The position numbers and the translations under genes are program-made. The notes beneath the pieces are model-generated. The model was not told where the DNA came from, searched no databases, and saw nothing but the letters and a program-made list of their open reading frames with translations. 21,660 bases of DNA from a virus: IMG/VR virus record IMGVR_UViG_3300044608_000603, positions 1 to 21,660 of that record; one strand, written 5' to 3'. Below, piece by piece: positions 3 to 18,284 of the stretch (position 1 is its first letter; each line of letters starts with the position of its first letter).

Positions 3-380
3 ACTACTATTAAAATAGTCGAACCTTCTGTAAGAGAATCTCTATTATTATCTGAACCAGATTCTAAGCCAGCCGGTATAGAAAGAATTTTAGAAATAAT
101 CACTGATAAGAAAGATAGAGAAAAATTTTCTATATTTAATTATGAATTTTCGAAAAGAATTAGTAAGTATAATGGGACTGCGCAAAAATATAATGATGTT
201 TACGTTAATGCGGCGATGTCATCTTTCGGTGACAATCTTAAAAAGTACAATGGTTTGAAAGATTTTTCCATACAATATATGGAAAGCGTAATATCTTCTA
301 AAGATAAATTTATAACAGAAGATGAAAAAAACATGTTGTCTAATAATTATCTAGCACTTTCTTGGGTATTGGGTGGTTAA
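3..380 (+). CDS. C-terminal part of an unrecognised protein (5' end outside window)
   Basis: An open frame runs from base 3 to the TAA at 378-380, giving 125 residues that end in SWVLGG. No start is visible, so the gene begins upstream of the window. The protein is soluble-looking, charged and mixed in composition, with no membrane segment, signal peptide or metal motif. I do not recognise a family. Codon use (AT-rich third positions) matches the neighbours, so it is very likely a real coding tail rather than noise. The next gene's ATG at 382 lies one base after this stop, which suggests the two are cotranscribed. Confidence 0.75.
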   Translation, partial: TTIKIVEPSVRESLLLSEPDSKPAGIERILEIITDKKDREKFSIFNYEFSKRISKYNGTAQKYNDVYVNAAMSSFGDNLKKYNGLKDFSIQYMESVISSKDKFITEDEKNMLSNNYLALSWVLGG

Positions 381-3045: not shown

Positions 3046-3051
3046 AGTGTA

Positions 3052-3068
3052 TATAAATATATATTTAT
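3052..3068 (+). promoter_or_regulatory. Possible late-type promoter or palindromic operator
   Basis: The 52-base gap between nrdJ and the PAS gene holds TATAAATA at 3052-3059, identical to the T4 late promoter consensus. It overlaps a perfect 16-base palindrome at 3053-3068 (ATAAATATATATTTAT). Both are suggestive only: in DNA this AT-rich the same octamer also occurs inside genes (for example near 603). No -35-like element is evident. Confidence 0.15.
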
Positions 3069-3097: not shown

Positions 3098-3754
3098 ATG
3101 TCAAATTTCATAAATAATTTAGATTGTACGATTATACGCCACTGGATTAGTAATTCTCTTTATTGTAAGATTATAATTAATTCTAATGGCAATATTATTT
3201 GGTCGAATAGAGCATTTTCTAATTGGATAGGGTACACTCCTTCAGAAATAACTTCTAAAAATTTTTCAGATTTTATTATAGATAATGACAATTTTTCAGA
3301 TAATGTAAAAGATTCTAACATTGGAAATGACGATTTTATAACTAATTATATAGTTCATAAACGATTTCTTAGAAGAAATGGCTCACCGGAATGGGGAGTT
3401 TTTCATATTATGAAATGTCCAGAGATAAATGGTGAAAGAAATGATTATTATCTTTGTTCATGGGAACCGGTGAATAATACTGAAGAAATTCTTACAAGAA
3501 AAATCCTTCAAAAAATGGAAAAAATGACGGAAGAAATTTCTGAAATGACTAGAACAATTGTGAGGCTTACAGAGAGTGTCGCAAAGTCTTGCGAGCCTGA
3601 TGAAGAATCTAAATGGTTTTCTTATACGATCAAAATGATTCAAAAATATCCTAAAGTTTCTTTACTTTTAGTAACTTTGATTTTAGGCTCTTATGGGGCT
3701 AGTAATATTATAAATATATTGTCTAAATTAGGATTCTTAACCGTAACTCAATAA
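3098..3754 (+). CDS. Membrane-anchored PAS-domain protein
   Basis: A 218-residue protein with three visible parts. Residues about 22-125 resemble a PAS fold: a core with IIINSNGNIIWSNRAFSNWIGYT, then a spacer, then a strand segment with RRNGSPEWGVFHI and a final DYYLCSW strand. Residues 130-165 form a heptad-like coiled coil (KILQKMEKMTEEISEMTRTI). Residues about 187-207 are a hydrophobic transmembrane helix followed by a short tail. There is no kinase, GGDEF or HTH output domain. PAS domains bind small ligands or cofactors and mediate dimerisation; here an N-terminal PAS would face the cytoplasm with a C-terminal anchor. Role is inferred only: a sensor, scaffold or host-signalling decoy. It sits between nucleotide-metabolism genes, and dut follows after 10 bases. 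Confidence 0.75.
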   Translation: MSNFINNLDCTIIRHWISNSLYCKIIINSNGNIIWSNRAFSNWIGYTPSEITSKNFSDFIIDNDNFSDNVKDSNIGNDDFITNYIVHKRFLRRNGSPEWGVFHIMKCPEINGERNDYYLCSWEPVNNTEEILTRKILQKMEKMTEEISEMTRTIVRLTESVAKSCEPDEESKWFSYTIKMIQKYPKVSLLLVTLILGSYGASNIINILSKLGFLTVTQ

Positions 3755-3764
3755 AGGGGAAAAT

Positions 3765-4184
3765 GTGGATATTGGCGTAAAATTATTGTGTGAAAACGCA
3801 AAGATTCCAACTTGTAATAATTATGGCGATGCTGGTTATGATTTATACTCTACTGAACATGTTATAATACCGTCTAATGAAAGAAAAACTATCAAAACTG
3901 GTATTGCTATAGAAATACCTTTAGGGTTTGTAGGTCTTATTTGGCCACGTTCAGGTCTTTCTGTCAAACAGGGTGTAGATGTATTAGCAGGCGTAATAGA
4001 TGCTACATATAGGGGAGAAATTATGGTATGTCTTCTTAATACATCTGATAAAGATGTTATTATTCTAGAAGGAAATAAAATAGCTCAAATATTAATACAA
4101 CCTGTAGAAGAATGTAATTTCATACAAAAAGATCAATTATCTAATACAACTAGGGAGGATAAAGGATTCGGAAGTTCTGGCTAA
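3765..4184 (+). CDS. dut: dUTP diphosphatase (trimeric dUTPase)
   Basis: It hydrolyses dUTP to dUMP and pyrophosphate, keeping uracil out of DNA and feeding thymidylate synthesis. It has 139 residues, typical of the homotrimeric family. All five motifs are present in order: AGYDLY (23-28), PRSGL (61-65), GVIDATYRGE with the catalytic Asp79 and sugar-stacking Tyr82 (76-85), GNKIAQILIQP (103-113) and the C-terminal glycine-rich REDKGFGSSG (130-139). The start is GTG at 3765 behind AGGGG (3755-3759); the overlapping ATG at 3763 is in another frame and stops after five codons. The gene lies between the PAS protein and PhoH. Confidence 0.95.
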   Translation: MDIGVKLLCENAKIPTCNNYGDAGYDLYSTEHVIIPSNERKTIKTGIAIEIPLGFVGLIWPRSGLSVKQGVDVLAGVIDATYRGEIMVCLLNTSDKDVIILEGNKIAQILIQPVEECNFIQKDQLSNTTREDKGFGSSG

Positions 4185-4212: not shown

Positions 4213-4863
4213 ATGACTAAATCTAATGTAAAACCTCCAAAAGTAGTTCCTTTAACTTATAAAACTGAAAATCAAAAACAATATATATTGTCGATAATAG
4301 AAAATGATATTACTTTTTGTACAGGACCGAGTGGAACCGGTAAGACTTTCATAGCGTCTGGACTTGCTACAGAAAAATTACATAAGGGAGAAATCGCTAA
4401 AATAATAGTAACTAGACCCTTAGTGTGTACTGGAAAAGATATTGGAGCATTACCTGGGGAAATAAACGAAAAAATAATGCCCTATTTAATTCCATTAGAA
4501 GAAAACTTTAAATTCTTTCTTAATGAAATGTATCGAGATTATTTTAGTCAGGGATGTATACAATATAGACCATTAGAGTTGATGAGGGGTTGTACTTTTG
4601 ATAATGCTATTATGATTTTAGACGAGGCTCAAAATTGTACATTTGAACAAATAAAAATGTTTATAACAAGAATAGGTAAGGATAGTAAAATAATTATTAA
4701 TGGCGATTTGAATCAAACCGATTTAAAAAGTGGGCAAACTTGTCTGAGTCATTGTATAAATAAATTAATAAATGTTAAAGGTGTTGGATTTGTAAAATTT
4801 AACGCTTCAGATATTCAAAGAAATGGTATAATAGGGAGAGTGTTAGAAGCACTTGAAAAATAA
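4213..4863 (+). CDS. phoH: PhoH-family ATPase
   Basis: A 216-residue P-loop ATPase of the PhoH family, common in marine and other tailed phages and of uncertain biological role (RNA metabolism or phosphate stress have been proposed for host homologues). Walker A is GPSGTGKT (38-45), the Walker B segment is IMILDEAQN (133-141), and a sensor-like GDLNQTD lies at 164-170. The conserved ITRP-type segment is seen as VTRPLVCTGKDIGALPGE (66-83). The ATG at 4213 follows a weak AAGAG at 4199-4203. The protein is about two thirds the length of bacterial PhoH and lacks its N-terminal extension, as is usual in phages. Its stop overlaps the next start by one base. Confidence 0.92.
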   Translation: MTKSNVKPPKVVPLTYKTENQKQYILSIIENDITFCTGPSGTGKTFIASGLATEKLHKGEIAKIIVTRPLVCTGKDIGALPGEINEKIMPYLIPLEENFKFFLNEMYRDYFSQGCIQYRPLELMRGCTFDNAIMILDEAQNCTFEQIKMFITRIGKDSKIIINGDLNQTDLKSGQTCLSHCINKLINVKGVGFVKFNASDIQRNGIIGRVLEALEK

Positions 4864-11898: not shown

Positions 11899-12923
11899 GT
11901 ATTAATATTCCGACTGTATATTTTAGGTCGTCCAGTTTGGGTAATTGGGAATTCTGTGAAATGCAGTATTTTATTCAGTATGTGTTAGGGTATAAATCTC
12001 CAGCAAATAAAAAAGCTCAACTTGGTACAATAACTCATAAAACAATGGAGATATTAGCTAATTGTAAAAAACAATTACAAGATGATCCTGATAAGGGTGA
12101 TTTTATTTATGTTGATCCAGAATTGGACGATATAAGTTGGGATAAATGGTCTTTATTTAAAAATCATTTTGTAGAAGATCTTTGTAGAAAAAGTTTTGAA
12201 TATTATAGAGACAAATGTATACATAATTATGAAGAAAGTGATTTTGATTTTTGTTATAAGATGTGTAGGGTGTTAATAGACAATTATGAAGGAGTTTTCG
12301 ATCCAAGATACAGAAATGTATTAGATCCAGAGCCATTTTTCGATATACCCATAGAAGAATCTTGGGCCAAATTTAATTACGAAGGCGAAGAATTTAACTT
12401 GGCTATAAAAGGTACTATAGATTTAGTTACTAAACTAGATGAAGATACTATAGAAGTAATAGACTACAAAACTGGCCAACGTAAAGATTGGGCTACAGGG
12501 GAAGTTAAAGATTACAAAAAATTGATGCAAGATACGCAACTTTTGTTATATAATTATGCAATTTCTAAGCTGTATCCGGAATATAAAAACCGAATTCTGA
12601 CTATAATCTTTTTGAGAGATGGGGGACCGTTTTCACTTTCTTTTGATGAAGATGATGAAAAAGAGTTCTTAAAAAGATTAAAGAAAAAGTTTTACGACAT
12701 AAGTAATACGAAATTCCCTAAGCTATGTTCTGCTAATAGATCTAATTTTAAATGTACAAGATTATGCCATTTTTATAAAGAGCAATTTCCAGGAACAAAT
12801 AAGAGTATCTGCGAACATGTGGAAGATAATATAAAGACATACGGTATAAAAATCGCCCAAAAAGAATTGAAAGTAGACGGATTTAATTCATCATCATATC
12901 AAGCCCCAGGTACAGGTAATTAA
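11895..12923 (+). CDS. Cas4/RecB-like PD-(D/E)XK nuclease with cysteine cluster
   Basis: A 342-residue nuclease of the Cas4/RecB superfamily, likely a DNA end-processing exonuclease. The motifs are GTITH with His48 (44-48), GTIDLV with Asp176, EVIDYKTG with Asp190 and Lys192, and QLLLY with Gln215 and Tyr219. Cys21 near the N-terminus plus Cys287, Cys291 and Cys306 near the C-terminus match the layout of an Fe-S-stapled nuclease domain (Cas4, AddB, Dna2), with Cys278 as a spare. Spacing CX3C and CX14C is wider than Cas4's usual CX2C and CX5C. Start ATG 11895 has GGAG at 11886-11889. No CRISPR array or other cas gene is present; it is read as a replication/recombination nuclease just upstream of the polymerase. 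Confidence 0.85.
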   Translation: MSINIPTVYFRSSSLGNWEFCEMQYFIQYVLGYKSPANKKAQLGTITHKTMEILANCKKQLQDDPDKGDFIYVDPELDDISWDKWSLFKNHFVEDLCRKSFEYYRDKCIHNYEESDFDFCYKMCRVLIDNYEGVFDPRYRNVLDPEPFFDIPIEESWAKFNYEGEEFNLAIKGTIDLVTKLDEDTIEVIDYKTGQRKDWATGEVKDYKKLMQDTQLLLYNYAISKLYPEYKNRILTIIFLRDGGPFSLSFDEDDEKEFLKRLKKKFYDISNTKFPKLCSANRSNFKCTRLCHFYKEQFPGTNKSICEHVEDNIKTYGIKIAQKELKVDGFNSSSYQAPGTGN

Positions 12924-14425
12924 TGTTAATTAATTTTACTCATTATAGTTTGCAAATTGGTTTATCTAAACCTAAACAACTTGTCGAGAAATGTTTAAAA
13001 GCCGGTTATGATTCTTGTGCTATAACCGATTTAAATACTATCTCTGGTTGTGTTGAATTTTATATAGAATGTAAAAATAATAACATAAAGCCTATACTTG
13101 GCATGTCTTTAGAGAGTGATACTCAACTTTTTGCTAAAAATATAAAAGGATGGAAGAAATTAATAAAAATAGTTAGCGGAGAATTAGAGACAGATTTAGA
13201 TGGAGATTTAATATGTTTATCTAATAATGAGAAATTTAAAGAGAAATTTAAAGATTTTAGGAAGAATGATGGCTCTATTAGGCCGAGTTATTATTGCGAC
13301 GAAGAAGATGCTGATATACATAAGATTTTGGTATGCGGTGGGCTTAAAATAAAAATTAATGAGATACCGAATGAAAAAAGATATCTATTTATAGACTCAT
13401 GTTTTTCAACAGACGGAATTCCTCAATTAGCAGAGTGTATAATAGAAAGTTGCGAAGAATATAATATACTTAGCAATCCGATATTACCAGTTTTTCCCAC
13501 AAATGGGGAGACAGAAGAAGAATTTTTAAAGGAAATTTGTAGGCAAGGATGGAGAAATAAGATAGCTCCTATCTTAAAAACCGATAAAGATAAACAAATC
13601 TATTTGGATAGATTCACCCATGAATTTAGTATTATTAAAGCCGCTAATCTGTTTGGATATTTTCTTATTGTTCATGATATTGTTAGCCATGCTAATATGC
13701 AAGGATTCATAACAGGCGTTGGTAGAGGAAGTGCCTGCGGTTGTTTAATATCATATTTAATGGGTATAACTCAACTTGATCCAATAAAATATAATCTTTT
13801 GTTTGAAAGATTTTATAACACTTCTAGAAACACGGATGGAAATATATCATTACCAGATATAGATTTAGATGTTCCATCTTCTAAAAGAGATAATATTATA
13901 AAATACGTTATAAATAAATATGGTAAAGATAATGTTGCTCAAATATGTACTTATAGTAGACTTCAAGGAAGAAGCGTTCTTAAAGAAATATTAAGAATCA
14001 CTACAGATTGTAGCAATTCTGAAATGAATGCTATCACTAAACATATTCCAGATGAAGCGGCTATTTCAGATGAATTAGAAAAAATGGATAAAGAAGATAA
14101 AAGTATAATCAAATGGAGTTTAATACACAAGAAGAAGGAGTTGGAACCATTCTGCCAAATAGATGAAAATGGGGATTTACACGGCGAATATGCAGATGTT
14201 TTTCAAAAAGGTATTAGACTTGAAGGAACATTTAAAAATGTCGGGACACATGCCGCTGGTATAATTATATCTAAGATTCCTATTAAAGAAATATGTCCAG
14301 TTATAGACAATGTTATACAGATGGAAATGGAATATATTGAGGCATTAGGATTGGCGAAATTTGATATATTAGGGGTAGCGGTTCTTAGCAAGTTAATGAG
14401 AATCAGAGAATTAGCAAATGATTGA
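12923..14425 (+). CDS. dnaE: DNA polymerase III alpha, piece 1: degenerate PHP + palm + thumb
   Basis: A 500-residue N-terminal fragment of a C-family DNA polymerase. The PHP domain at about 1-200 is reduced and has lost metal ligands: the start reads NFTHYSLQ instead of HLHxHS, and ITDLN replaces TDHxN. The palm is intact: GVGRGSACG (265-273), PDIDLD with catalytic Asp312 and Asp314, HAAGIII (443-449), and the third catalytic Asp481 in AKFDILGV (478-485). The protein ends 19 residues later at an ordinary TGA with no intein sequence, at the boundary where the fingers would begin (about residue 567 in E. coli numbering). Start ATG 12923 shares a base with the previous stop. It needs pieces 2 and 3 to make a full enzyme. 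Confidence 0.92.
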   Translation: MLINFTHYSLQIGLSKPKQLVEKCLKAGYDSCAITDLNTISGCVEFYIECKNNNIKPILGMSLESDTQLFAKNIKGWKKLIKIVSGELETDLDGDLICLSNNEKFKEKFKDFRKNDGSIRPSYYCDEEDADIHKILVCGGLKIKINEIPNEKRYLFIDSCFSTDGIPQLAECIIESCEEYNILSNPILPVFPTNGETEEEFLKEICRQGWRNKIAPILKTDKDKQIYLDRFTHEFSIIKAANLFGYFLIVHDIVSHANMQGFITGVGRGSACGCLISYLMGITQLDPIKYNLLFERFYNTSRNTDGNISLPDIDLDVPSSKRDNIIKYVINKYGKDNVAQICTYSRLQGRSVLKEILRITTDCSNSEMNAITKHIPDEAAISDELEKMDKEDKSIIKWSLIHKKKELEPFCQIDENGDLHGEYADVFQKGIRLEGTFKNVGTHAAGIIISKIPIKEICPVIDNVIQMEMEYIEALGLAKFDILGVAVLSKLMRIRELAND

Positions 14426-14747
14426 AATTTTTGATAAAAACTGTAATGATTTAGATGTAATAAGTATGAATGTAGATGCCGTGGAACATTCTATATTCGG
14501 TAGAACGATTTCCATTAAAACTAGGATAGACGAGGTTTCAAAAAAACTTCAATCCCAACAATCATTATATGATGTAAATGGTAATTGTTATATAATAATA
14601 AGAAAAAGATATATTGCAAATGAGTCTAGTAGGGTGGATATATATGAAAACCCAGACGATATAAGTTATGTGGTATTTGAATGCCGTATTAAATCTGAAT
14701 TTGAGAATTATCTTTCTTGTGGGATATTAAAAAAAAATAAAGGATAA
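14418..14747 (+). CDS. Unrecognised 109-residue protein inside the polymerase locus
   Basis: ATG 14418 lies inside the last codons of dnaE piece 1 (8-base overlap) with a GAGA sequence upstream. The sequence looks like a small alpha/beta domain: VDAVEHSIFGRTISIKTRID, then a Gln-rich helix SKKLQSQQSLYD, then strands NCYIIIRKRYI and SYVVFECRI, and a basic tail KKNKG. It contains no DnaE, intein or nuclease motif that I recognise. Its position between the palm fragment and the proofreading exonuclease suggests a replisome accessory, possibly bridging the fragments, but that is inference only. Confidence 0.65.
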   Translation: MIEIFDKNCNDLDVISMNVDAVEHSIFGRTISIKTRIDEVSKKLQSQQSLYDVNGNCYIIIRKRYIANESSRVDIYENPDDISYVVFECRIKSEFENYLSCGILKKNKG

Positions 14748-14753
14748 AATAAT

Positions 14754-15431
14754 ATGCGAGATATCATTTGTTTAGATTTTGAAACAGGCGGAGTAAACCC
14801 ATACACCTGTCAATTAACACAAATAGCGGCTATAGCTTTAGATGGTAGATCATTTAAATTGAAGGGTTCGTTTAATTCCGAAATTTTTGCCGAAACTGAT
14901 GACGATAAAGCTATGGAACTTGGACTTGAACCTTTATCAGAAAAAGCTTTAAAAGTAACCGGCAAAAATAGAGAGCAAATAGCTTCTGCTCCGGATATTA
15001 AATATGTTTGGCCGAAGTTTGTAGAATTTGTCAACAAATATAACTATAATAAAACAGCATATTTTGCGCCAATAGCGTGTGGGTATAATATTATTAATTA
15101 TGATATGGTTATAATAGACAGATTATGTAAACAATTTGGACAACATAACGGCGAAAAACAAACTATATTCAACCAAATATTTAAAATAGATGTTCTTGAT
15201 ATGGTACATCTGTGGTTAGAGAGCGATCCAGATATAAAGACCTATAATCTGGATAAAATAAGAGATGTAATGGGGCTATCTAAAGAGAATGCTCACGATG
15301 CTTTACAAGATGTTAAAGATACGGCAAATATAATGATTTTATTTATGAAAACGCAAAGAGAAATATATCAACAATTACTTTGCAAGAAAATTAACGGGGC
15401 ATTTGCTAACGGGAAATTATATGTTGAATGA
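14754..15431 (+). CDS. DnaQ-like 3'-5' proofreading exonuclease (DEDDh)
   Basis: A 225-residue exonuclease that would remove misincorporated nucleotides from 3' ends, working with the polymerase encoded on both sides. ExoI motif is CLDFETGG with Asp8 and Glu10, ExoII has Asp117 in YNIINYDM, and ExoIII is HDALQDVKD with His181 and Asp186, so all DEDDh residues are present. Size is close to the E. coli epsilon subunit (243). Start ATG 14754 has AAAGGA at 14738-14743. Because the PHP domain of piece 1 has lost its metal ligands, this is the likely source of proofreading. It overlaps dnaE piece 2 by 11 bases, which suggests balanced co-expression. Confidence 0.92.
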   Translation: MRDIICLDFETGGVNPYTCQLTQIAAIALDGRSFKLKGSFNSEIFAETDDDKAMELGLEPLSEKALKVTGKNREQIASAPDIKYVWPKFVEFVNKYNYNKTAYFAPIACGYNIINYDMVIIDRLCKQFGQHNGEKQTIFNQIFKIDVLDMVHLWLESDPDIKTYNLDKIRDVMGLSKENAHDALQDVKDTANIMILFMKTQREIYQQLLCKKINGAFANGKLYVE

Positions 15432-16233
15432 AGTTAATATAGAAAATATTAAAGAGGTTTGGGATTTATTTGGAAACGGTCATACTAAGGGTCTATTCCA
15501 ACTTGAAAGTAATTTGGGAAAGTCTTGGGCTAAAAAATTACAACCGGTGAATTTAGAGCAACTTTCAGCTTTAGTGACAATACTTAGACCTGGATCGCTA
15601 CGCGCTATAATCGATGATAAATCTATTACACAGCATTATGTAGATAGAAGACATGGGAAAGAAGCTATTACATATATAGACGAAAGTTGTAAAGATATAT
15701 TATCGCCAACGCTTGGTTTGATGTTGTATCAAGAACAAACTATGGAAATAGCTAAAAAGATAGCGGGATTTTCTGGCGTAGATGCAGATCGGCTAAGAAA
15801 AAGTATAGGGAAAAAGAAGGCGGACTTAATGGAATCTCTTAGGCATAAATTTATAAACGGATGTGTTGAAACCGGCATAGTAACGAAACAAAAGGCTGAA
15901 GAAATATTTGAGATTATTGAGAAGAGTGCTAGATATCAATTCAACGCATGTTTAGATCCAAATACATTTGTAGAAACAGATCGTGGAGAAATTAAAACAT
16001 TGGACGAATTAAGTGTAGGAGAAAAAATACTTTGTCCTACAGAAGATGGTGATAAATTTATAGAAGTATTAAATTTTATGGAATCTGGGGATAAAGAGTT
16101 ATATGAAGTAGAGTTGGAAGATGGTTTTAGTATAACATGTTCTTTAGATCATGAATTTATGTGTGAAGATTCAATAAAGAGGTCTTTATCAGAAATTTTA
16201 GAAAATAATCACAAAATAATGTGTATAGAATAG
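15421..16233 (+). CDS. dnaE: DNA polymerase III alpha, piece 2 (fingers) fused to split-intein N-half
   Basis: A 270-residue fusion. Residues 1-176 are DnaE fingers sequence: KGLFQLES (23-30), ILRPGSL (54-60), LYQEQTMEIA (102-111), DRLRKSIGKKK (123-133) and EEIFEIIEKSARYQFNA (160-176). This takes up where piece 1 stops, with only the variable linker between. Residues 177-270 are an intein N-terminal half. ATG 15421 has GGGA at 15411-15414 with a 6-base spacer and is preferred to TTG 15403. After the intein the frame ends at an ordinary TAG, so the rest of the polymerase must come from the separate gene at 17124 by trans-splicing at FNA^SHAFAYA. Confidence 0.9.
   Translation: MLNEVNIENIKEVWDLFGNGHTKGLFQLESNLGKSWAKKLQPVNLEQLSALVTILRPGSLRAIIDDKSITQHYVDRRHGKEAITYIDESCKDILSPTLGLMLYQEQTMEIAKKIAGFSGVDADRLRKSIGKKKADLMESLRHKFINGCVETGIVTKQKAEEIFEIIEKSARYQFNACLDPNTFVETDRGEIKTLDELSVGEKILCPTEDGDKFIEVLNFMESGDKELYEVELEDGFSITCSLDHEFMCEDSIKRSLSEILENNHKIMCIE
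15949..16230 (+). other. Split intein N-half (IntN), 94 residues
   Basis: It starts with the splicing nucleophile Cys in CLDPNTFVET (block A) and has block B as SITCSLDHEFM, with the conserved His in an S-x-x-H form. It then ends at a stop codon with no endonuclease domain attached. The opening closely resembles gp41-1-type split inteins (CLDLKTQVQT), and the length is close to the 88-102 residues of known split-intein N-halves. It is strongly acidic, as expected for an N-half that pairs electrostatically with a basic C-half. Confidence 0.9.
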
Positions 16234-16263
16234 TATGGCTTATATTAAATAGGGGGCATACTA

Positions 16264-17151
16264 ATGATTATAGATAAATCTTTATGGCAAACTTGCAAAA
16301 TAACTGGTAAAAATATAAAAGATTTTGGCAAAAGTGGTAAGTATTATACAGATATATTTAAAGAGCATTTAGATTCTTTAGGAATCTCTTTAGTAGACTA
16401 CTTTGTTAAATACTGTAATATAGAAAATCCAATCTGTCCTTGCGGAGTTTGTAATAAAAAACTTAGTATTGTAAAAAAGGGTGCTAATTTTTATTGGAAA
16501 AAATTTGAATGCGGCAGGAACGAGGGGGTTAAAAAATGGTCTGAAGAAGCTAAATCAACTAGGTTAGGCGAAAACAATCCAATGTACGGGAAAAATCCTT
16601 GGAACAAGGGTAAAAATAAAGACAATAACCCTATTATGAAAGAAAAATCAGAAAGAGCTAAAGGTAGAATAACTCCGGAACATGTCAAGATTAAACAATC
16701 TGAGTCTGCTAGAAAAAGGATTATACATGGCATGTCTGGAAAAACGCATTCTAACGAAGAAAAAATTAGAATGAGACAGAGAACTTTAGAAAGATTAAAG
16801 AATGGAGATTTTGGTAAAACTAAAACATTGCCGCATAAATTATTATCTAATGTATTAGAAGATTTGAAAATAAAATATGAAGAAGAAAAATCTCTTTACT
16901 ATTGGAATTTTGATTTCTATCTTATAGACTATGATGTATATATCGAAGTAGACGGAGACTACTGGCATTCAAACCCAAAGTTTTACCCAAATGGTCCGGA
17001 GACTAAATCTCAAAAGATAAATTATACTAGAGATATAAGTAAAAACAATTACTGTAAGAAAAACAATATAAAACTTATGAGATTCTGGGAAAACGATATT
17101 ATTACAAATAAGGAAAGCATTATATGCAAGCTAAAAGAATTATCGGTGTAA
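16264..17151 (+). CDS. Free-standing homing endonuclease, NUMOD3 + Vsr-like (EDxHD type)
   Basis: A 295-residue protein lying between the two intein halves. The N-terminal part has a possible zinc knuckle (Cys58, Cys60, Cys63 and Cys83). A NUMOD3 DNA-binding motif, GENNPMYGKNPWNKG, is at 102-116, and further basic repeat-like helices run to about 190 (KSERAKGRITPEH, KQSESARKRI, SNEEKIRMRQR). The C-terminal nuclease domain has Asp217, Glu228, Asp230 and His235 in FDFYLIDYDVYIEVDGDYWH, with Asp257 in TRDISKNNY. This is the EDxHD family defined from fractured split-intein genes. It would cut polymerase alleles lacking the intein so that the cassette is copied in. The start has AGGGGG at 16251-16256. 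Its end overlaps the next gene by 28 bases. Confidence 0.9.
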   Translation: MIIDKSLWQTCKITGKNIKDFGKSGKYYTDIFKEHLDSLGISLVDYFVKYCNIENPICPCGVCNKKLSIVKKGANFYWKKFECGRNEGVKKWSEEAKSTRLGENNPMYGKNPWNKGKNKDNNPIMKEKSERAKGRITPEHVKIKQSESARKRIIHGMSGKTHSNEEKIRMRQRTLERLKNGDFGKTKTLPHKLLSNVLEDLKIKYEEEKSLYYWNFDFYLIDYDVYIEVDGDYWHSNPKFYPNGPETKSQKINYTRDISKNNYCKKNNIKLMRFWENDIITNKESIICKLKELSV

Positions 17152-17237
17152 AAAGTGTTGGTATCAAAAGATCTGTAGATATAGAAGTTGACTCTAAAGA
17201 ACATTTATTTTATGGAAATGGTATAGCTACTAGTAAT
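17124..17237 (+). other. Split intein C-half (IntC), 38 residues
   Basis: The block F-like segment is SVDIEVDSKEHLFYGNG and the block G end is IATSN, with splice-site Asn38 followed by Ser39. The penultimate residue is Ser instead of the usual His; cyanobacterial DnaE split inteins such as Npu (IASN) also lack that His. The N-terminal region is basic (Lys4, Arg5, Lys10, Lys15, Arg16), complementary to the acidic N-half. Length is close to the 36-40 residues of known split C-halves. Confidence 0.9.
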
Positions 17238-18284
17238 TCACACGCTTTTGCTTATGCTAAAACATCTTTACTTACTGCGTATGAAAAATATAAATCTCCC
17301 ATTAATTTTTTTACAGCATATTTAGAATTCTCTGGCGATAAACAGGATAAAAATGAAGAAGTGGCAGGATTAATATCTGAAGCCAAGTCTGTATTTAATA
17401 TAAAAGTGGAAATGTGCAGATTAAACAATATTTGCGAAAGTTATGCTAGAAATATAGATAATAACGTTATATATTTTGGCATTAAAAGTATTAAGAGTAT
17501 GACTGGTGTTCGTGGAAATGAGGTTATATCCGCATTAAATGAATTCAATTCTAAATATAAAAACCCAAATTGGATGGAGATATTAATATTCTTGTCTAAA
17601 GAAATCGTATCCACTAATTTTAAGGCATTATGTTCTGTAGGATTCTTTGAAAGTCTTAACGTAAAAGAAACTAGGACTAGGATGTTATACGAGTATGGAA
17701 TCTTCAAAGGATTAAAAGATGGGGAATTGAAATGGGTGCAAGATAATTATGATAAATTTAAATGGACAAGTTTAGTAACATGTCTAAGAGATTTAATGCC
17801 AACCAAAAAAAATGGCGGTGGAACTAGCACTATTGGTAGAAGTAATGCTATAAGTAATGAAATATTACTATTAGAATCTCCGCCATATGATCTAGATGTC
17901 GATGATCCTAATTGGGTGCTTGATACAGAAAAAGATCTGTTAGGATGCGAAATATCAACAGATAAATATGCTGTGCCTAGAATTCTTTCGAATGTAACAT
18001 GTCAAGAGGCTTGTAACAAGTCTAACATGAGTAACTCTAGAATGTGTTGCTCTATAGTAAGTATTAATACTCATACTATTAAAAAAGAGGGCGCGAATAA
18101 AGATAGAGAAATGGTGTTTTTGACTGTTAAAGATGATACAGGATTATTTGATTCTGTAGTAGTATTTCCAGATGCTAGAGAAGATCATAAATTTTCTATA
18201 TTTGAGAATAACAATGTTTTACTTATAGGCCATATTAAAGATGGCTCGTTTATAGTTACGGATATGAAGGATATACAAGAATGA
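17124..18284 (+). CDS. dnaE: Split-intein C-half fused to DNA polymerase III alpha, piece 3 (fingers end + OB fold)
   Basis: A 386-residue fusion. Residues 1-38 are the intein C-half, followed by Ser39 as the +1 nucleophile and DnaE sequence from SHAFAYAKTSLLTAYEKYK on. Recognisable parts are the end of the fingers (IYFGIKSIKSMTG, 116-128), FKALCSVGFFESL (166-178), and a C-terminal OB fold at about 308-384 (MVFLTVKDDTGLFDSVVVFP; HIKDGSFIVTD). I see no QxxLF-type clamp-binding motif where E. coli has QADMF. Splicing with piece 2 would give 524 residues. ATG 17124 has AAGGA at 17110-17114 and lies inside the homing endonuclease gene. Its stop forms ATGA with the glycosyltransferase start. Confidence 0.9.
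   Translation: MQAKRIIGVKSVGIKRSVDIEVDSKEHLFYGNGIATSNSHAFAYAKTSLLTAYEKYKSPINFFTAYLEFSGDKQDKNEEVAGLISEAKSVFNIKVEMCRLNNICESYARNIDNNVIYFGIKSIKSMTGVRGNEVISALNEFNSKYKNPNWMEILIFLSKEIVSTNFKALCSVGFFESLNVKETRTRMLYEYGIFKGLKDGELKWVQDNYDKFKWTSLVTCLRDLMPTKKNGGGTSTIGRSNAISNEILLLESPPYDLDVDDPNWVLDTEKDLLGCEISTDKYAVPRILSNVTCQEACNKSNMSNSRMCCSIVSINTHTIKKEGANKDREMVFLTVKDDTGLFDSVVVFPDAREDHKFSIFENNNVLLIGHIKDGSFIVTDMKDIQE

Follow-up and report, generated by a model that had tools for sequence, protein, structure and literature searches.

A membrane-anchored PAS protein without an output domain in a phage nucleotide-metabolism locus, and its possible relation to lysis-region proteins

We asked what a phage might do with a sensory PAS domain that is held at a membrane and carries no output domain. 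Such a protein is encoded in the window (the whole 21,660-nucleotide stretch of viral DNA analyzed here), between genes for nucleotide metabolism. The features of the locus are as follows.

3..377, + strand: cut ORF, by eye of the same family as a 157-aa protein of contig L001
373..711, + strand: small membrane protein that weakly matches (E 3e-5) the gene preceding the reductase in L176
769..3045, + strand: ribonucleotide reductase, the upstream neighbor (phrog_367, 2.2e-76)
3047..3054, + strand: GTGTATAT, directly after the reductase stop codon and at the equivalent place before both orthologues
3098..3754, + strand: PAS–coiled coil–membrane anchor protein, 218 aa, ATG start (ORF; orthologues in L001 and L002)
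3137..3472, + strand: PAS fold, residues 14–125, with the Pfam match at residues 25–107 (Pfam profiles, fold comparison)
3476..3589, + strand: heptad-patterned long helix, residues 127–164, a presumed parallel coiled coil (model and heptad statistics)
3587..3655, + strand: juxtamembrane segment, residues 164–186 (21 of 23 invariant in three orthologues)
3656..3712, + strand: predicted single membrane helix, 19-residue hydropathy window from residue 187
3765..4184, + strand: dUTPase, the downstream neighbor (PF00692, 2.1e-35)
4213..4863, + strand: PhoH-like ATPase (PF02562, 3.5e-62)

Anatomy of the protein and its locus

The PAS domain is genuine. The protein matched Pfam PAS_9 (E 1.2e-8, 35.6 bits; cut-off 27) and Pfam PAS (E 6.6e-5, 23.3 bits; cut-off 22.6), both orthologues exceeded the PAS_9 cut-off (31.5 and 34.8 bits), and all three sequences (window, L001 and L002) passed NCBIfam sensory_box, a generic profile that was the closest NCBIfam domain. 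An AlphaFold model built from three sequences reached a mediocre mean pLDDT of 57.7, with values of 70–90 in 51 residues only; its PAS part resembled the solved PAS domain 3bwl with a TM-score by target of up to 0.78 (3bwl_A: Z 14.2, 104 residues aligned, rmsd 2.3; model confidence moderate). In the same model, residues 127–164 form a helix, and the 33-residue stretch up to KSC has a stronger a/d heptad pattern than shuffled sequences (p 0.003, 0.003 and 0.008 in the three orthologues, which are related sequences and not independent tests). A single hydrophobic segment starts at residue 187 or 189 (mean Kyte–Doolittle 1.79, 1.88 and 2.11 in the three orthologues); it was called by a hydropathy threshold, not by a trained predictor, and this region of the model has mostly pLDDT < 50. 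Searches of Pfam, PHROGs, NCBIfam and PADLOC revealed no output domain, and the ORF matched no HisKA/HATPase kinase family anywhere along its length, unlike a PAS sensor histidine kinase. These searches confirmed the anatomy read from the letters in the original prediction, namely a PAS domain followed by a heptad helix and one C-terminal membrane segment, with no output domain.

In LOV photoreceptors of the YtvA type, the photoactive cysteine sits in an NCRFLQ motif. This type was rejected for the window protein: in a by-eye alignment the corresponding place reads KNFSDF, KNLSNF and KKSSDF in the three orthologues, and the YtvA model scored at most 25.1 bits against a cut-off of 250. His 15, 87 and 103 are invariant in the three orthologues; a heme PAS domain of the FixL/DosP type needs bound heme and an axial F-helix histidine.

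The window protein shares fold and sequence profile with the PAS domains of sensor proteins (Pfam PAS_9 and PAS; 3bwl, an HTR-like protein), but it is the product of a phage gene and lacks a kinase, cyclase, DNA-binding or other output domain. Short viral proteins annotated as "PAS domain" (169–205 aa) also occur in BFVD for uncultured Caudovirales phages (A0A6J5NY05, A0A6J5KZZ3 and others), and these were likened to the window protein by fold only. VqmA of vibriophage VP882 (PMC8284805; structure 7dwm) is likewise a phage-encoded PAS sensor; it is reported to be a DNA-binding receptor, whereas no DNA-binding domain was matched in the window protein, which carries a membrane helix.

The gene neighborhood is shared with both orthologues: in L001 and L002, the reductase lies upstream and dUTPase and PhoH lie downstream. 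GTGTATAT is present once in the window. A T4-like late promoter was considered and rejected. TATAAATA precedes the window gene, but it occurs 13 times in the window against 9.8 expected, 20 of 100 shuffles reached 13, and the orthologues do not have TATAAATA at that place on this strand.

Orthologues and the conserved juxtamembrane segment

Orthologues of the window protein were found in two viral contigs, L001 (69% identical) and L002 (54%). A second viral scan with the three-row profile returned the same two and nothing more, and the same profile, applied to bacterial genome contigs, recognized no relative in 583 pattern stretches. No window-type protein occurred in 37 further records of related phages, the single weak profile match being to one of the helix–coil–PAS proteins described below. 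Searched by tblastn against annotated phages, the window protein had no match at a threshold of E 0.01 or of E 10; its absence from cultured phages, like that of the helix–coil–PAS proteins, holds at tblastn sensitivity only. By these searches, the window-type gene appears to be clade-specific, with three orthologues known.

Conservation among the three is uneven. Invariant residues make up 8 of 20 at the N-terminus, 46 of 105 in the PAS domain, 10 of 38 in the coil, 9 of 21 in the membrane segment and 3 of 11 in the tail, compared with 21 of 23 in residues 164–186 (hypergeometric 1.1e-6; 2e-4 allowing for 196 positions; the borders of the segment were set post hoc, with the data already seen). 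The peak of conservation is therefore neither the PAS domain nor the membrane helix but the 23 residues just N-terminal to the latter, a stretch seen in the three orthologues only. Taken as a helix, a 15-residue portion of this segment shows moderate amphipathicity (p about 0.03 against shuffles).

Membrane PAS proteins in lysis-like regions of related phages

Among 35 related records, counting the window itself, PAS_9 was detected at E ≤ 0.001 in 9 and exceeded its cut-off in 5, and the positive records include some without a window-type gene; the expectation that PAS domains are rare in phages thus fails for this phage group. One match was found in 28 further records. The PAS proteins of these relatives are about 185–209 aa long, have the order membrane helix, coil, PAS, and carry no output domain. 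A viral scan found such helix–coil–PAS proteins in 47 contigs. A gene of 68–83 aa, mostly with one or two hydrophobic segments, directly follows in 46 of the 47, and a papain-like peptidase (Pfam C1, 2.3e-5) is present in 39, although many of the contigs are near-copies, so that the counts are not independent; the family alignment holds 29 distinct sequences. The small neighbor is termed holin-like by size and hydropathy only; two members had no PHROGs family match, and one of these had no Pfam match either. The model of the helix–coil–PAS family was better than that of the window protein (pLDDT 81.4) and likewise had a PAS fold (Z 12.9), and searches of annotated phages with these proteins gave no match or chance-level matches only.

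The relatives' proteins and the window protein each combine one membrane helix, a helical stalk and a PAS domain without an output domain. They differ in that the window protein has the reversed order (PAS, coil, membrane helix) and lacks the NGG-S-LKD motif conserved in the relatives' stalk. Their genes adjoin the small membrane gene and the peptidase, whereas the window gene is adjoined by the reductase and dUTPase genes, which places it outside the helix–coil–PAS family by context as well as by order. An hhalign comparison of the two families aligned the PAS part alone (probability 80, E 1.3e-5), a figure that covers this one pair of PAS families.

Of the 80 loci fetched that carry the papain-like peptidase, 71 extend upstream of it by 1 kb or more; a helix–coil–PAS gene lies within 4 kb in 23 of these 71. 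A strict functional link between peptidase and PAS protein is weakened, because the peptidase mostly occurs without a helix–coil–PAS gene. The peptidase family (L234–L313) is very common in viral contigs, with at least 559 members among 600 pattern stretches, yet tblastn against annotated phages gave no match to it.

Several records place membrane–coil proteins, with or without PAS, near holin-like or lysis-like genes. In the record of L083, an unrelated contig, a membrane–coil–PAS protein (PAS_3, 1.3e-7), whose membrane helix was read by eye and lies under the hydropathy threshold, is followed by a membrane protein with a DUF2570 match below cut-off and then by Phage_lysozyme (2.7e-40). In L247, the slot between a structural gene and the small membrane gene holds another membrane PAS protein, built in the same way (PAS_9, 1.5e-8). 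A PAS-less membrane–coil protein precedes the small membrane gene in L234, L243, L245 and L247, and one follows that structural gene in L319, L320, L324 and L325; in the stretch examined, no such protein precedes the small membrane gene in L248, L250, L253 or L279. Two of the PAS-less slot fillers have weak BhlA/XhlA-type matches below cut-off, and the match of the L245 filler to the BhlA holin is near threshold (PF10960, 19.4 vs 22.6 bits). BhlA/XhlA-type small lysis proteins share a membrane helix and a coil with the window protein, which, however, carries a PAS domain and matched none of the BhlA and XhlA holin profiles in Pfam and PHROGs. The portion of the open-access literature consulted contained no account of PAS proteins in phage lysis cassettes; PMC12542753 deals with a host kinase and does not bear on them.

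The closest record outside the window clade, L086 (58% in a 166-aa marker protein), has a 94-aa membrane–coil protein between reductase (PF02867, 4.6e-90) and dUTPase, and its usual slot is empty. The 94-aa protein weakly matched the helix–coil–PAS profile (8e-4, small database) and had no sequence similarity to the window protein (BLASTP E 26), so L086 serves as a bridge by position only. This arrangement is suggestive of a relocation in which the window gene would have replaced the relatives' slot protein. The upstream genes of L001, including that for the 157-aa protein, match membrane-protein clusters of the relatives; the contig stops inside the peptidase gene, short of the slot, and the last viral scan, made with the L001 end, found no other window-clade contig reaching it.

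A fold search with the relatives' model also returned two Cellulophaga phage proteins, S0A2B2 (phi18:3, 172 aa, E 3.9e-5) and R9ZZL0 (phi19:1, 240 aa, E 1.3e-3), assigned to gp090 and gp108, respectively, by protein length alone. The former (L230 39102–40734), a possible membrane–coil–PAS-fold protein of a cultured phage, is encoded two genes before the endolysin, and gp108 five genes before the lysozyme. Neither has a Pfam PAS match, and gp108 has no membrane segment above the hydropathy threshold; we treat the two as a lead only.

A tentative signaling role and its alternatives

The relatives' membrane PAS proteins beside holin-like genes point towards the lysis region. We tentatively favor a reading, plausible although far from assured, in which the window protein is a membrane-tethered PAS regulator that signals through its juxtamembrane segment to a membrane protein, possibly one of the lysis region. 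The PAS domain would be cytoplasmic, given the lack of an N-terminal hydrophobic signal and the positive residues before the membrane helix; the protein would dimerize through the coiled coil, as the heptads suggest, with its single C-terminal helix holding it at the inner membrane. A ligand, the redox state or a partner might alter the PAS domain, and the change would travel along the coil to the nearly invariant juxtamembrane residues, which would bind and modulate another membrane protein. A phage protein from the lysis region is the likeliest class of partner, because the other membrane PAS proteins of related phages adjoin holin-like genes. Sensing at the membrane, as put forward in the original prediction, would fit this anatomy, and the interpretation given there is partly supported overall.

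How phages time lysis has been worked out for a handful of model holins and antiholins. The membrane-PAS anatomy, together with relatives near holin-like and lysis-like genes, leads to a broader lysis-sensor hypothesis, to which we assign a modest probability and which we would sooner doubt than assert: phages may have repeatedly fitted PAS domains to lysis-region membrane–coil proteins, so that the host's metabolic, redox or energetic state would set the moment of lysis, with the window gene as a relocated version in reversed order. The lysis-like neighbors of the relatives' proteins suggest, without proof, that phages may sense host state at the host membrane. Against a lysis role, the window gene sits among nucleotide-metabolism genes, outside any lysis cassette; its domain order is opposite to that of the relatives, and the detectable similarity is confined to PAS; only three orthologues are known; and most loci with the papain-like peptidase have no helix–coil–PAS gene nearby. 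With a family of membrane PAS proteins next to lysis-like genes, the timing of lysis by host physiology would become directly testable, and the window gene would be a compact case, in which the signal must exit through about 23 conserved juxtamembrane residues.

The position between reductase and dUTPase, common to all three genomes, could instead indicate a membrane tether or regulator of nucleotide synthesis or replication, which would keep either enzyme or the replisome close to the membrane or tune them in response to a signal sensed by PAS. Spacing was compared in 13 fetched loci that carry both enzymes, leaving out the window and duplicate loci. The gap is 733 bases in L001 and 727 in L002, each containing the PAS gene, and 471 bases in L006, which has small genes without a membrane segment inside; in the remaining 10 of the 13, the two genes lie no more than 114 bases apart and no other gene separates them, and reductase and dUTPase there do without the window gene. 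The protein also has no sequence feature known to bind either enzyme. These observations disfavor the replication tether raised in the original prediction, and we consider a role of this kind unlikely.

A role as redox sensor, metal sensor or scaffold that uses the cysteines, with the PAS domain as carrier, is improbable. All five cysteines of the window protein (10, 23, 107, 120 and 165) are invariant across the three orthologues, and thioredoxin-domain proteins are encoded nearby in L001 and L086, but three sequences cannot separate function from common descent. We regard as quite improbable a decoy role, likewise raised in the original prediction, in which the protein would use its PAS domain or coil to pair with a PAS sensor kinase of the host and would block or redirect that kinase. 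A PAS domain and coil without a kinase do resemble the input half of a sensor kinase, and the closest NCBIfam domain is a generic sensory box; however, the genome contigs yielded no relative, and conservation peaks in a juxtamembrane stretch exclusive to the three orthologues, so kinase blocking finds no support here. Tether and decoy are both possible, with less behind them than the lysis-sensor hypothesis. That the gene was recently acquired and has no selected membrane role is very improbable: it is confined to a small clade, but ORF and architecture are kept at 54% identity and one stretch at 21/23. The divergence of the PAS gene (69% and 54%) is similar to that of its dUTPase neighbor (72% and 62%).

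Other features of these loci were observed in passing. The reductase genes of L001 (1453–4947) and L002 (113–4408) and the PhoH gene of L002 (5576–7261) have long in-frame insertions that look like inteins, whereas the window copies do not. A polymerase at 12923–18284 of the window, presumably DnaE-like, is apparently split over several ORFs with other genes interspersed. Just upstream of the reductase region, L224 (10554–11354, − strand) and L314 (5419–6078) encode proteins in which a cysteine-rich motif resembling CxCxGTGxIxHGDGH is joined to a thioredoxin domain and which have a membrane- or lipid-anchored look.
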